The translations under genes were made by a program, and so were the position numbers. A stretch of 64,000 bases of DNA from Desulfovibrio psychrotolerans (lineage in GTDB: Bacteria; Desulfobacterota; Desulfovibrionia; Desulfovibrionales; Desulfovibrionaceae): the NCBI RefSeq assembly GCF_013340305.1, contig NZ_BLVP01000035.1, forward strand, positions 124,001 through 188,000. The letters run 5' to 3'. A model generated the notes under the pieces. It saw only the letters and a list, made by a program, of their open reading frames with translations, was not told the origin of the DNA and made no database searches. Shown one piece after another: positions 2,066-5,481 of this stretch (position 1 is the stretch's first letter; each line of letters starts with the position of its first letter).

Positions 2066-3379
2066 ATGATAATGTTTGAACAGCTTGCGGAAAAAAAGGC
2101 CCCTGTCGCAGTCATCGGCCTCGGTTACGTAGGCCTGCCCCTCGCGGTGGCCCTGTCCGACCATTTCGAAACCATAGGCTTCGACATCTCCGCCTCCCGC
2201 GTGGCGGAACTGAACGGCGGGCACGACCGCACAGGCGAAGTGGAAGACTCCCGCCTTGCCCTCAGCAAGGCCGCCTTCACCACAGACCCGGCGCAACTGG
2301 CCCGCGCGGGTGTTATCATCGTGGCCGTGCCCACGCCCATAGATTCCCACCGCAACCCGGACCTCACCCCCGTGCTCCTGGCATCGGAAACCGTGGGCCG
2401 TCACATGTCGCGCGGCTGCATCGTGGTCTATGAATCCACCGTCTACCCCGGCCTGACCGAAGAAGAATGCGTGCCCGTGCTGGAACGCTGCTCCGGCCTG
2501 CGCTTCGGGGCCGACTTCACCGTGGGCTACTCGCCGGAACGCATCAACCCCGGCGACAAGGTCCATACGCTGGAATCCATCGTCAAGGTGGTGGCAGGCT
2601 CCGATGCACGCACGCTGGACATACTGGACCGCCTCTACGCCTCGGTGGTCAGGGCGGGCGTCCACCGCGCCAGCTCCATCCGCGTGGCAGAGGCCGCCAA
2701 GGTCATAGAAAACACCCAGCGCGACCTGAACATCGCCCTCATGAACGAACTGGCCGTCATCTTCGACAAGCTGGGCATCGACACGCTGGAGGTTCTGGAG
2801 GCGGCGGGCACCAAATGGAATTTCCTGCCCTTCCGTCCCGGTCTGGTGGGCGGGCACTGCATCGGCGTAGACCCCTACTACCTCACCTTCAAGGCAGAGG
2901 CCATCGGCTACAACCCGCAGGTCATCCTTGCGGGCCGCCGCATCAACGACGGCATGGCCAAGTTCGTGGCAGAAAGCTGCGTCAAGCAGCTCATCCGGCG
3001 CAACCGTCTCATTCAGGGCGCGCGCGTGGGTGTACTGGGCTTCACCTTCAAGGAAAACGTGCCGGACCTGCGCAACACCAAGGTCATTGATCTGGTGAAC
3101 GAACTGCGCGACTACGGCGTGAACGTGCTGGTGCACGACCCCGTGGCAGACGCCGAAGAAGCCCGGCACGAATACGGGCTGGAGCTTTCGCCCCTCAGCG
3201 ATTTCACCGGGCTGGATGCCCTCATCCTCGCTGTGGCGCACGATGTGTACCGGGCCATGGACCCCGTGCAGCTCAAGACATGGTTCACAGACCCCCAGTC
3301 CCCTCTGTTGCTGGACATCAAAGGCATGTTCCCGCCGCAATCCGTGCGCGACGCGGGTTTCTGCCTCTGGAGGCTGTAG
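2066..3379 (+). CDS. Nucleotide-sugar dehydrogenase (UDP-HexNAc 6-dehydrogenase type)
   Basis: This 437-residue NAD-dependent enzyme oxidises C6 of a UDP-sugar to the uronate in two steps. The Rossmann motif VIGLGYVGLPLA lies at residues 15-26, and the catalytic cysteine is in GLVGGHCIGVDPYYL near residue 260. The lysine-containing GFTFKENVPDLRNTK segment is near residue 325. The form of the cysteine motif matches the WbpO/TviB branch (UDP-N-acetylgalactosamine or glucosamine dehydrogenase) better than UDP-glucose dehydrogenase, but substrate cannot be fixed from sequence. GAGG lies five bases before the ATG. No other polysaccharide gene is adjacent, so the pathway is open. Confidence 0.88.
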   Translation: MIMFEQLAEKKAPVAVIGLGYVGLPLAVALSDHFETIGFDISASRVAELNGGHDRTGEVEDSRLALSKAAFTTDPAQLARAGVIIVAVPTPIDSHRNPDLTPVLLASETVGRHMSRGCIVVYESTVYPGLTEEECVPVLERCSGLRFGADFTVGYSPERINPGDKVHTLESIVKVVAGSDARTLDILDRLYASVVRAGVHRASSIRVAEAAKVIENTQRDLNIALMNELAVIFDKLGIDTLEVLEAAGTKWNFLPFRPGLVGGHCIGVDPYYLTFKAEAIGYNPQVILAGRRINDGMAKFVAESCVKQLIRRNRLIQGARVGVLGFTFKENVPDLRNTKVIDLVNELRDYGVNVLVHDPVADAEEARHEYGLELSPLSDFTGLDALILAVAHDVYRAMDPVQLKTWFTDPQSPLLLDIKGMFPPQSVRDAGFCLWRL

Positions 3380-3382
3380 GCC

Positions 3383-3634
3383 ATGCAGGATATCCCGGTC
3401 ATCAATTGCTGGGCCGATTGCTGAATAGGCTTCATGGAGGCGAGTTCGCGCCTTCGTGCAGCACAGCCGGGCGAGCGCATCATCGCGCAGGCACGGCAGG
3501 AAGACCGGCAGCGTCTGGGCCGCATCGCCAAGGTGCGCGACGCGGCCATCGTGGAGGCACACATCCTCCCCGCGGGCAGCGTCTGCGGGCAGAATGGTGA
3601 ACTGGTGAACTTTGTTCTGGAAAAACGCGCATGA
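3383..3634 (+). CDS. Candidate selenocysteine-containing TusA/SirA-like protein (in-frame TGA)
   Basis: A reading frame starts at ATG 3383, nine bases after a strong GGAGG (3369-3373). It meets TGA at 3422-3424 (codon 14) and then stays open to a TGA at 3632-3634 that overlaps the mqnB ATG as ATGA. Read with selenocysteine (U), it is 83 residues beginning MQDIPVINCWADCUIGFMEA. The layout fits TusA: short strand, Cys motif, helix, PGE, and a final FVLEK strand; the U takes the place of the first Pro of the TusA CPxP motif. A hairpin with SECIS-like geometry follows the TGA. Alternatives are a pseudogene with a nonsense TGA, or a shorter 66-residue product from ATG 3434, which has no convincing binding site. 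Selenoprotein status is an inference. Confidence 0.6.
3436..3455 (+). promoter_or_regulatory. Candidate bacterial SECIS hairpin
   Basis: Eleven bases after the in-frame TGA, a 7-bp stem (3436-3442 with 3449-3455, one G-T pair) closes a six-base loop AGTTCG. The spacing and a G in the first two loop positions fit the known rules for bacterial SECIS elements recognised by SelB. The hairpin lies inside the coding sequence, as in formate dehydrogenase genes. Confidence 0.5.
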
Positions 3635-4473
3635 CACTGCTGCTCGCCACTGCCACGCAAAAGGAAATGAAGGCCGTCCTCAAAGGCTTTAACGGACGCG
3701 GACGCGTCGGCTGCCAGTTACCCGTGCAAGGACAGTGGTGCGAATCGCCCATAAACGAGCACCTGTGCCTGCTCGCCGTAACGGGAGTGGGGCCGCTCAA
3801 TGCCTCATTCACGCTGGGGCGCATTCTCGGAGAATGTTTCGGCGTCACCGGCGTCATCAATCTGGGCGTGGCAGGCAGTTTCGATACCGCCATCCTGCCT
3901 CTGGGCACTGCCGTGCTGGCGGACAGGGAAATCTGGCCGGAATACGGCCTGCGTGCCAATCATACCGGACGATGCGGCACCGTGGCAGAGGCACCCTGTA
4001 TCACCGGCACCGCCGGCACCTCCTCCCCCTGCGGCACCTCATGTTCCGATGGAGACGGTGCCCCCCCGTGGCTCGATGTGAACCCGCGCGGCATCGCCTT
4101 TCCCCTGTGGGAATCCGGCGATGAAGAAGATGCTCCGCCTGCCCGCACCGTGTGGGACCGCGTGGACCTTGCCCCCCATGCAGACATCGCCCGCATGGGC
4201 CTGAACAGACCCGCCGCCGCGTGCGCACCCAGCATCACCGTGGCGGGCGTAAGTGCCACCCCGCAGCGCGCCGCCGACCTGCACCGTACCTACGGCGCGC
4301 TCACGGAGAATATGGAAGGCTTTGCCCTTGCGCTGGGCTGCCTGCAGGCGGGCATACCGTTCGTGGAACTGCGCACCGTCTCCAATGTGGTGGGGTCGCG
4401 CGCGCCGGAAGACTGGAAGCTGGATGAAGCCCTTGCCGCACTGGGCGCAGCGGCACGGTCCCTTTTCATATAA
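3631..4473 (+). CDS. mqnB: Futalosine hydrolase
   Basis: This 280-residue nucleoside phosphorylase-fold enzyme removes the base from futalosine (or aminodeoxyfutalosine) in the alternative menaquinone pathway. It starts MTLLLATATQKEM, has GVAGSFDT near residue 90, and ends with TENMEGFALALG and the RTVSNVVGSRAPEDW segment typical of MqnB. It is longer than usual (about 220-230 residues): a Gly/Ser/Cys- and acid-rich insert occupies roughly residues 112-185. The start overlaps the preceding TusA-like gene (ATGA), indicating translational coupling. The pathway's other steps are not in this window. Confidence 0.85.
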   Translation: MTLLLATATQKEMKAVLKGFNGRGRVGCQLPVQGQWCESPINEHLCLLAVTGVGPLNASFTLGRILGECFGVTGVINLGVAGSFDTAILPLGTAVLADREIWPEYGLRANHTGRCGTVAEAPCITGTAGTSSPCGTSCSDGDGAPPWLDVNPRGIAFPLWESGDEEDAPPARTVWDRVDLAPHADIARMGLNRPAAACAPSITVAGVSATPQRAADLHRTYGALTENMEGFALALGCLQAGIPFVELRTVSNVVGSRAPEDWKLDEALAALGAAARSLFI

Positions 4474-4512: not shown

Positions 4513-5481
4513 ATGCGAGAACTCATAGCCTATCTTTCTGCGGAACAGCCGCGCATAAACGCCACTCTGGAGCGTGAAACCGCCGGTCTCAACCCGCTGG
4601 TGCAGCCCGTGGTGGCCCATGTGCTGGAAGCGGGCGGCAAGCGTCTGCGTCCCCTGCTCACCCTGCTCACAGCCCGCGCGCTGGGCTATGCAGGCGATGA
4701 TGTCTACCCCCTCGCCTGTTCGGTGGAACTGCTCCACTCCGCCACGCTCCTGCATGACGACATCATAGACGATGCCGACCTGCGGCGCGGCACCCCTGCC
4801 GCCCATACCATGTTCGGCAACACCAAAACAGTGCTCGCGGGCGATGCGCTGCTGGCACTTGCCAACGCCATCGTTGCCCGCTACGGCAATCCGCGCCTCA
4901 CGGCCTGCATTTCGGAAGCCATTGTGGAAACCGTTACCGGCGAAATCGCAGAAATTGCCTACCTGCGCAGCACGGGACACCCGCAGCAGACCTACATCGA
5001 CATCATCAAGGGCAAAACCGCCTACCTTATTCAGGCCTCCTGCCGACTGGGCGCGCTCATCGCCGGTGCGGACAAAACGCAGGAAGAGGCCGCCGCCCTC
5101 TTCGGCATGCACCTCGGCATCGCCTTCCAGATAGTGGACGATGCGCTGGACTTCGCCCCTTCCGCCAAAGACATCGGCAAACCCGTTGCCGGAGACCTGC
5201 GCGAAGGCAAACTCACCCCCCCCCTGCTCATGTATCTCGAAAACCTCACCGGCGACGCGCACAAATCATTTGTGCAAAAATTCGAAACTGGTATGTTTAC
5301 AGAAGCGGAGGTGCTGGCTGTTGCCGCCGCCATCCGCGAGCAGGGTCTGGACGCGCGCACCCGCACGCTGGCGGAAGACTATCTCGCCACCGCCCGCACG
5401 GCACTGAACGCCCTGCCGGACTGCGCAGAACGCACGGTGCTCGCCCAGACCATGGAGTATGTACGAAGCAGGTCCCATTAA
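4513..5481 (+). CDS. ispB: Polyprenyl diphosphate synthase
   Basis: This 322-residue trans-prenyltransferase extends farnesyl diphosphate with isopentenyl units to make the menaquinone side chain. The first Asp-rich motif is LLHDDIIDDADLRRG (about residues 78-92) and the second is FQIVDDALDF near residue 211. GGKRLRP near residue 41 binds diphosphate. The gene follows mqnB by 39 bp. Chain length cannot be read from the sequence; octaprenyl or heptaprenyl synthase are both possible. Confidence 0.9.
   Translation: MRELIAYLSAEQPRINATLERETAGLNPLVQPVVAHVLEAGGKRLRPLLTLLTARALGYAGDDVYPLACSVELLHSATLLHDDIIDDADLRRGTPAAHTMFGNTKTVLAGDALLALANAIVARYGNPRLTACISEAIVETVTGEIAEIAYLRSTGHPQQTYIDIIKGKTAYLIQASCRLGALIAGADKTQEEAAALFGMHLGIAFQIVDDALDFAPSAKDIGKPVAGDLREGKLTPPLLMYLENLTGDAHKSFVQKFETGMFTEAEVLAVAAAIREQGLDARTRTLAEDYLATARTALNALPDCAERTVLAQTMEYVRSRSH

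Follow-up and report, generated by a model that had tools for sequence, protein, structure and literature searches.

A putative selenocysteine-containing TusA-like protein family in Desulfovibrio psychrotolerans and its phylum

Gene layout and selenocysteine machinery

Analysis of the window, a stretch of 64,000 nucleotides of Desulfovibrio psychrotolerans, identified a gene on the forward strand at 3383–3634 that encodes a putative selenocysteine (Sec)-containing, TusA-like protein of 83 residues followed by a stop. A Shine-Dalgarno-like GGAGG (3369–3373, forward strand), read directly, lies nine bases 5' of the ATG at 3383, codons 13 and 14 are TGC (Cys13; 3419–3421) and an in-frame TGA (predicted Sec14; 3422–3424), and 69 sense codons then lead to a stop TGA at 3632–3634 that overlaps the ATG of mqnB at 3631 (ATGA). 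The sequence-only reading had described this ribosome-binding site, the TGA at codon 14, the open codons after it and the overlap, and all were present in the sequence.

The genes surrounding this frame lie on the same strand. Directly upstream is a nucleotide sugar dehydrogenase gene (2066–3379; TIGR03026, 385 bits against a cut-off of 189.8), while the overlapping mqnB (3631–4473) encodes a futalosine hydrolase (TIGR03664, 174.7 bits; cut-off 124.7). The same neighbourhood holds a MenG/UbiE-type methyltransferase gene (1022–1801; TIGR01934, 219.2 bits; cut-off 158.35) and a polyprenyl diphosphate synthase gene (4513–5481), to which 16 related models match, none of them above its own cut-off. 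MqnB appears to have some 40 additional residues, its matches in relatives being interrupted near residues 109 and 150.

A scan of the genome for SelA, SelB, SelC and SelD had been proposed, and all four were found above cut-off: selA (611 bits), selB (366 bits), tRNA-Sec (selC; 79.4) and selD (341 bits). The selD gene (L245, G000:C8:668866-669792) has its own in-frame TGA followed by its own hairpin, making it a second selenoprotein gene of this genome. Among 99 relatives selB scored above cut-off in 88; the 11 in which it did not include two carriers of the Sec gene, G023 and G030, whose fragmented assemblies comprise 430 and 520 contigs, G023 being rated 95% complete.

Conservation of the TGA and the downstream hairpin

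When the 83-residue protein was used to search the 99 related genomes, 27 of them yielded a total of 28 places; exactly one in-frame TGA was present at 26 of these places, the other two being weak matches without it (E 0.001 and 0.009). A profile built from those 26 TGA-bearing sequences (A1) matched 53 of the 288 genomes of the family, with one TGA at all 53 places, and gave 24 matches among 395 genomes sampled from the phylum, own genome included, of which 23 had one TGA and one was a weak match of 16 residues. A broader profile of 33 sequences (A2) gave 36 matches in the phylum sample, 32 with one TGA and four without; two of these four were canonical CPxP TusA proteins matched via their later part and two were chance-like. 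Members were counted in 53/288 genomes of the family and 32/395 of the phylum sample. All TGA-bearing places found, one more from the order included, made up a set of 85 distinct genes (L027, L028, L203 and L306–L309, as well as repeats of the same gene, were left out of the counts). All 85 genes read had one in-frame TGA and all 85 had a Cys codon directly before it.

Conservation of the TGA in homologs had been named as a check in the earlier reading, and the codon was kept in every member, none of the 85 having a sense codon in its place. The Cys (TGC) homologs that were also expected did not appear, as protein and profile searches found no Cys form among the matches in the sets of 99, 288 and 395 genomes. 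Cys-containing homologs are usual for bacterial selenoproteins, although they are not required. A pattern scan of contigs that allowed any TGN codon at this position gave at least 119 matches in at least 118 stretches (TGG 38, TGC 31, TGA 29, TGT 21), and the 81 non-TGG matches examined among those listed contained three real members (L069, L096 and L173), all with TGA. Sequencing error as the source of the TGA can be ruled out, since an error would not strike the same codon in many genera.

The coding sequence on both sides of the TGA appeared to be under purifying selection. For 20 gene pairs picked by hand, dN/dS came to 0.065 over the eight codons 5' of the TGA; on the 3' side it was 0.095 over the first four codons, 0.114 within the codons of the hairpin described below and 0.14 over codons 12–35. 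In the same pairs, synonymous change per site (pS) was down to 0.22 within the hairpin codons and 0.32 over the four codons preceding these, in comparison to 0.55 upstream and 0.60 downstream. Such low pS at the hairpin is expected where an RNA element overlies a coding sequence.

This hairpin begins eleven bases past the TGA with a core stem of 7 bp (3436–3442 with 3449–3455) that closes an apical loop AGTTCG at 3443–3448, 18 nt past the TGA. RNAfold lengthened it to 10 bp (3433–3458, forward strand); three of the four stretches that were folded gave the hairpin (z -2.50, -2.59 and -2.45) and the fourth, 59 nt long with the TGA as its first bases, preferred another fold (z -1.28). According to the available text of PMC13188914, a bacterial SECIS element has a loop of 3–9 nt, a stem of 4–16 bp, a G in the first two loop positions and a UGA-to-loop distance of 16–37 nt, and follows a free-energy rule. 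The window gene agreed with the loop, spacing and G rules.

These three rules of PMC13188914, as given in its available text, were applied to all members, with 6 or more pairs required in the stem and G-U pairs allowed, and the null was obtained by redrawing synonymous codons at each gene's own GC3. A SECIS-type hairpin was found in 82 of the 85 genes versus 15.8 expected, and a loop of 4 or 6 bases located exactly 18 nt after the UGA in 79 versus 3.6 expected; the genes are related and several are near-identical, so that these counts are not independent trials. Under the rules applied L019, L346 and L356 had no hairpin, and three further genes had one out of register. A looser rule with loops of up to 10 nt had given 67/67 genes at a smaller sample size, as compared with the 82/85 obtained for all genes at the published limit of 9. 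A control window placed further down the first 58 genes showed a hairpin in that register in only 2, while RNAfold alone placed a loop at the expected position in 51 of the 58, with a mean z against synonymous redraws of -1.86 (below -1 in 48/58). The loop codon was AGT in 63/85 genes; of the 186 Ser codons elsewhere in the first 58 genes, 12 were AGT.

The pairs of this hairpin covary. Two registers were distinguished, one with a 6-nt loop (26 genes) and one with a 4-nt loop (32 genes), in which 91.8% and 94.2% of cells paired and 19 and 35 cells, respectively, had changed on both sides, these counts leaning toward pairing because each of the 58 genes used (of 85) was put in its better-fitting register. 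In both registers 0/500 shuffles reached the paired percentage, the number of both-side cells or the covariation score. Less separation was seen for the number of pairs with change on both sides, reached by 30 and 12 of 500 shuffles, and for further pair types (25 and 7). Structures slid out of place were only 33–62% paired. The sequence-only reading had interpreted the 7-bp hairpin with its AGTTCG loop as a SECIS element, an interpretation that is now backed by the recurrence of the hairpin in 82 members and by covariation.

The observations above bear directly on the reading that the TGA is an ordinary stop, so that either a product of 66 aa is made from the ATG at 3434 or the gene has decayed. 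An open reading frame of that length does exist, but the Met at residue 18 from which it would start is not conserved, codons 5' of the TGA are under purifying selection, and the TGA persists in 85/85 members with the hairpin in 82, leaving this reading with a close to negligible probability. From these sequence comparisons the gene almost certainly encodes a selenoprotein in which the UGA at codon 14 would be decoded as Sec.

Relationship to TusA

The sequence-only reading had also proposed a TusA-like layout, and both fold and profile comparison backed it. An AlphaFold2 model made with 26 sequences (mean pLDDT 82) had the order beta-alpha-beta-alpha-beta-beta, which matches that of the PF01206 fold. 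No Foldseek match reached E 0.001, the best being the TsuA-TsuB complex (E 0.0024). The seven best VIA-align rows were, in order, two TsuA-TsuB chains, a SirA-like protein, YhhP, IscS-TusA, HP1264 and IscS-TusA (Z 10.8 to 8.2), so that six of the seven were TsuB, SirA-like or TusA chains, and Alba followed at Z 8.1. We did not take HP1264 (row 6) or the proteins from row 8 on (Alba, IF3 and methyltransferases) as TusA relatives. A search of PDB sequences with the profile returned four matches that were taken as chance, the best being a zinc-finger protein (E 0.0032).

At the sequence level, the window protein alone matched neither Pfam nor NCBIfam, and PF01206 matched 6 of the 33 members of profile A2 (best E 1.2e-4). 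When A2 was compared by hhalign against 21 canonical TusA domains, the result was 92% and E 6e-7 over an alignment from helix 1 to the end. When this alignment is extended without gaps, Cys13 would correspond to the conserved Cys of TusA, Sec14 to the first Pro and Gly16 to the second Pro of the CPxP motif. This agrees with the earlier proposal that a Cys-Sec pair stands in place of the Cys-Pro of CPxP. The motif itself is absent from the protein, which has Cys-Sec-x-Gly/Ala instead; two positions past Sec, 70 of the 85 members have Gly, 14 have Ala and one has Pro. Fold and profile results together make a TusA-like fold very likely, and as an account of identity and decoding, function being considered separately, a TusA-like selenoprotein is the best explanation and a highly probable one.

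Comparison with known systems relates this family to several groups of proteins. It resembles the TusA/SirA sulfur carriers (PF01206; solved structures 1dcj, 3lvj and 3hz7) in size, predicted fold, profile similarity (92%) and the placing of the key Cys where helix 1 begins, and differs from them by the replacement of CPxP described above; identity to solved or aligned TusA domains is about 9 to 19%. YedF (TIGR03527), whose gene is present in the same genome, shares a TusA-like domain and a selenium context, but it joins this domain to a C-terminal DsrE-like domain and in this genome has CPQP without an in-frame stop, whereas the Sec protein is a single domain of 83 residues with Sec and no NCBIfam match. 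Since YedF was the one place listed by a PF01206 search of the genome, the genome may encode no stand-alone TusA-fold protein other than the Sec protein. Also close is the TsuB domain of the TsuA-TsuB thiosulfate uptake complex (8k1r), which ranked first in the structural comparison (Z 10.8, rmsd 2.0 over 74 residues) and differs in that it partners a membrane transporter. The aligned part of the 8k1r chain, residues 375–450 (the last 75 or so), is what we take to be TsuB.

Neither a TusA nor a SirA family is listed in Table 1 of the 2026 inventory of 119 families (PMC13188914), in the form in which that table was available, and the words TusA and SirA are absent from its main text. No NCBIfam model of June 2026 sensibly matches or names the family, no paper connecting TusA with a selenoprotein turned up in full-text searches of the open-licence literature, and neither TusA nor SirA is named in the available portions of PMC9312934, PMC1088965 and PMC12013277. 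PMC4607533, as far as its accessible text goes, mentions SirA only for YedF. The authors of deep-Sep state, in the available part of PMC12013277, that their method may miss selenoproteins that lack Cys homologs. The lack of a Cys form may likewise be the reason why screens based on Cys/Sec pairs have missed this family. The addition of the family, which is distributed across a bacterial phylum, to the known selenoproteins shows what screens that rely on Cys homologs can overlook.

Gene neighbourhoods and a candidate role in selenium supply

Gene neighbourhoods were surveyed at 40 loci, 20 of the order and 20 from elsewhere in the phylum. The overlap with mqnB could suggest a part in menaquinone (futalosine) biosynthesis, and indeed in 16/20 loci of the order the Sec gene has MenG, sugar dehydrogenase and mqnB genes on its own strand and no more than about 3 kb away. 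This setting was found at 0/20 loci outside the order, however, and the dehydrogenase gene lies close to mqnB all the same in seven genomes in which the protein search found no copy of the Sec gene (G012, G013, G014, G017, G019, G029 and G063), while in G022 and G030 the Sec gene is on a different contig than this pair. As these seven genomes keep the pair without it, the Sec gene behaves in the menaquinone setting like an insert that some genomes have and others lack. Its position in the menaquinone operon looks incidental, the linkage to mqnB noted in the sequence-only reading is probably not functional, and a menaquinone role is very improbable.

Selenium-associated genes were found beside the Sec gene at some loci. 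A LysR-family gene scoring above the cut-off of NF040786 (selenium metabolism-associated) lay directly upstream on the same strand in 5/20 loci outside the order and was absent from beside the Sec gene in the remaining 15. At one of the five, L235, selD and yedF are located downstream, at distances of 2.6 and 3.5 kb, which was the only case of SelD and YedF near the Sec gene among the 40 loci. Both the LysR_Se subfamily and YedF have been tied to selenium by comparative genomics, according to the accessible text of PMC5322559 and, for TIGR03527, of PMC2276186.

A role of the protein in selenium trafficking or homeostasis, as suggested by these neighbours, is nearly an even call and is put no higher because LysR_Se, SelD and YedF occur in a minority of loci. 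More specifically, and tentatively, this Sec-only TusA-like family might serve as a dedicated selenium relay that passes selenium from a lyase or from selenide to SelD and excludes the excess sulfide of sulfate reducers. The predicted Cys-Sec dyad would sit at the start of helix 1, with the Cys of TusA's CPxP kept, its first Pro replaced by Sec and its second by Gly or Ala. Cys13 could then carry a chalcogen, most likely selenium as Cys-S-Se-, in the way that the Cys of TusA carries a persulfide, and the neighbouring Sec14 might aid its loading or release. Sec is more nucleophilic than Cys. By such steps selenium would reach SelD selectively in a sulfide-rich cell. If true, a selenoprotein would feed selenium into selenoprotein synthesis, as Sec-containing SelD does. 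Section 7 of PMC13188914, in its available form, describes the in vivo selenium supply of SelD as incompletely elucidated, and the family offers a specific candidate protein for this question.

Alternatively, the protein may be a selenoprotein whose Cys-Sec dyad works in sulfur relay or as a persulfide reductase, TusA-like, and does not carry selenium. The TusA-like fold is consistent with this, as is a gene of the TauE family (sulfite exporter) directly downstream in L210 and L211, the two loci of genus g8 that were scanned. It is harder to reconcile with the selenium-associated LysR gene directly upstream in 5/20 loci outside the order, with selD and yedF near the Sec gene in L235, and with Sec in 85/85 members and no Cys form; we consider it unlikely. 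The sequence-only reading had regarded a protein of this kind as a potentially notable sulfur-relay variant. A TusA-like Cys-Sec protein is retained from that description; sulfur relay alone is not, as the LysR_Se, SelD and YedF neighbours favour selenium, and selenium metabolism is the better-supported setting.

A third possibility, also rather unlikely, is that the selenoprotein binds metal(loid)s or acts in thiol/selenol redox chemistry. A Cys directly beside Sec is also seen in the CU-motif selenoproteins SaoC, SaoL, HgcA and KCU-star, for which CU is the listed motif in the available part of Table 1 of PMC13188914. Some neighbours are metal-related: a CbiK-type cobaltochelatase gene is present downstream in 7/20 loci outside the order (L224, L226, L227, L228, L230, L232 and L233), and in L235 the interval between the Sec gene and selD holds a gene of opposite orientation with a molybdopterin-binding domain (L235:9370-10416). 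The Sec protein differs from these CU families, however, in having no NCBIfam match to any of them, and its fold is that of a carrier and not theirs as far as tested. Identity with another CU-motif selenoprotein family was dropped in view of the missing NCBIfam match.

The loci also contained other recurrent or single genes. An FDH-alpha-like gene was found near the Sec gene on the other strand in 6/20 loci outside the order. Upstream of the LysR gene, L235 and L240 showed genes for a metallo-beta-lactamase-fold hydrolase (4/20 loci) and an Rrf2-type regulator (2/20). In L211 the Sec gene is preceded by the gene for ribosomal protein S1, and an acyl-CoA dehydratase activase gene is located further upstream.
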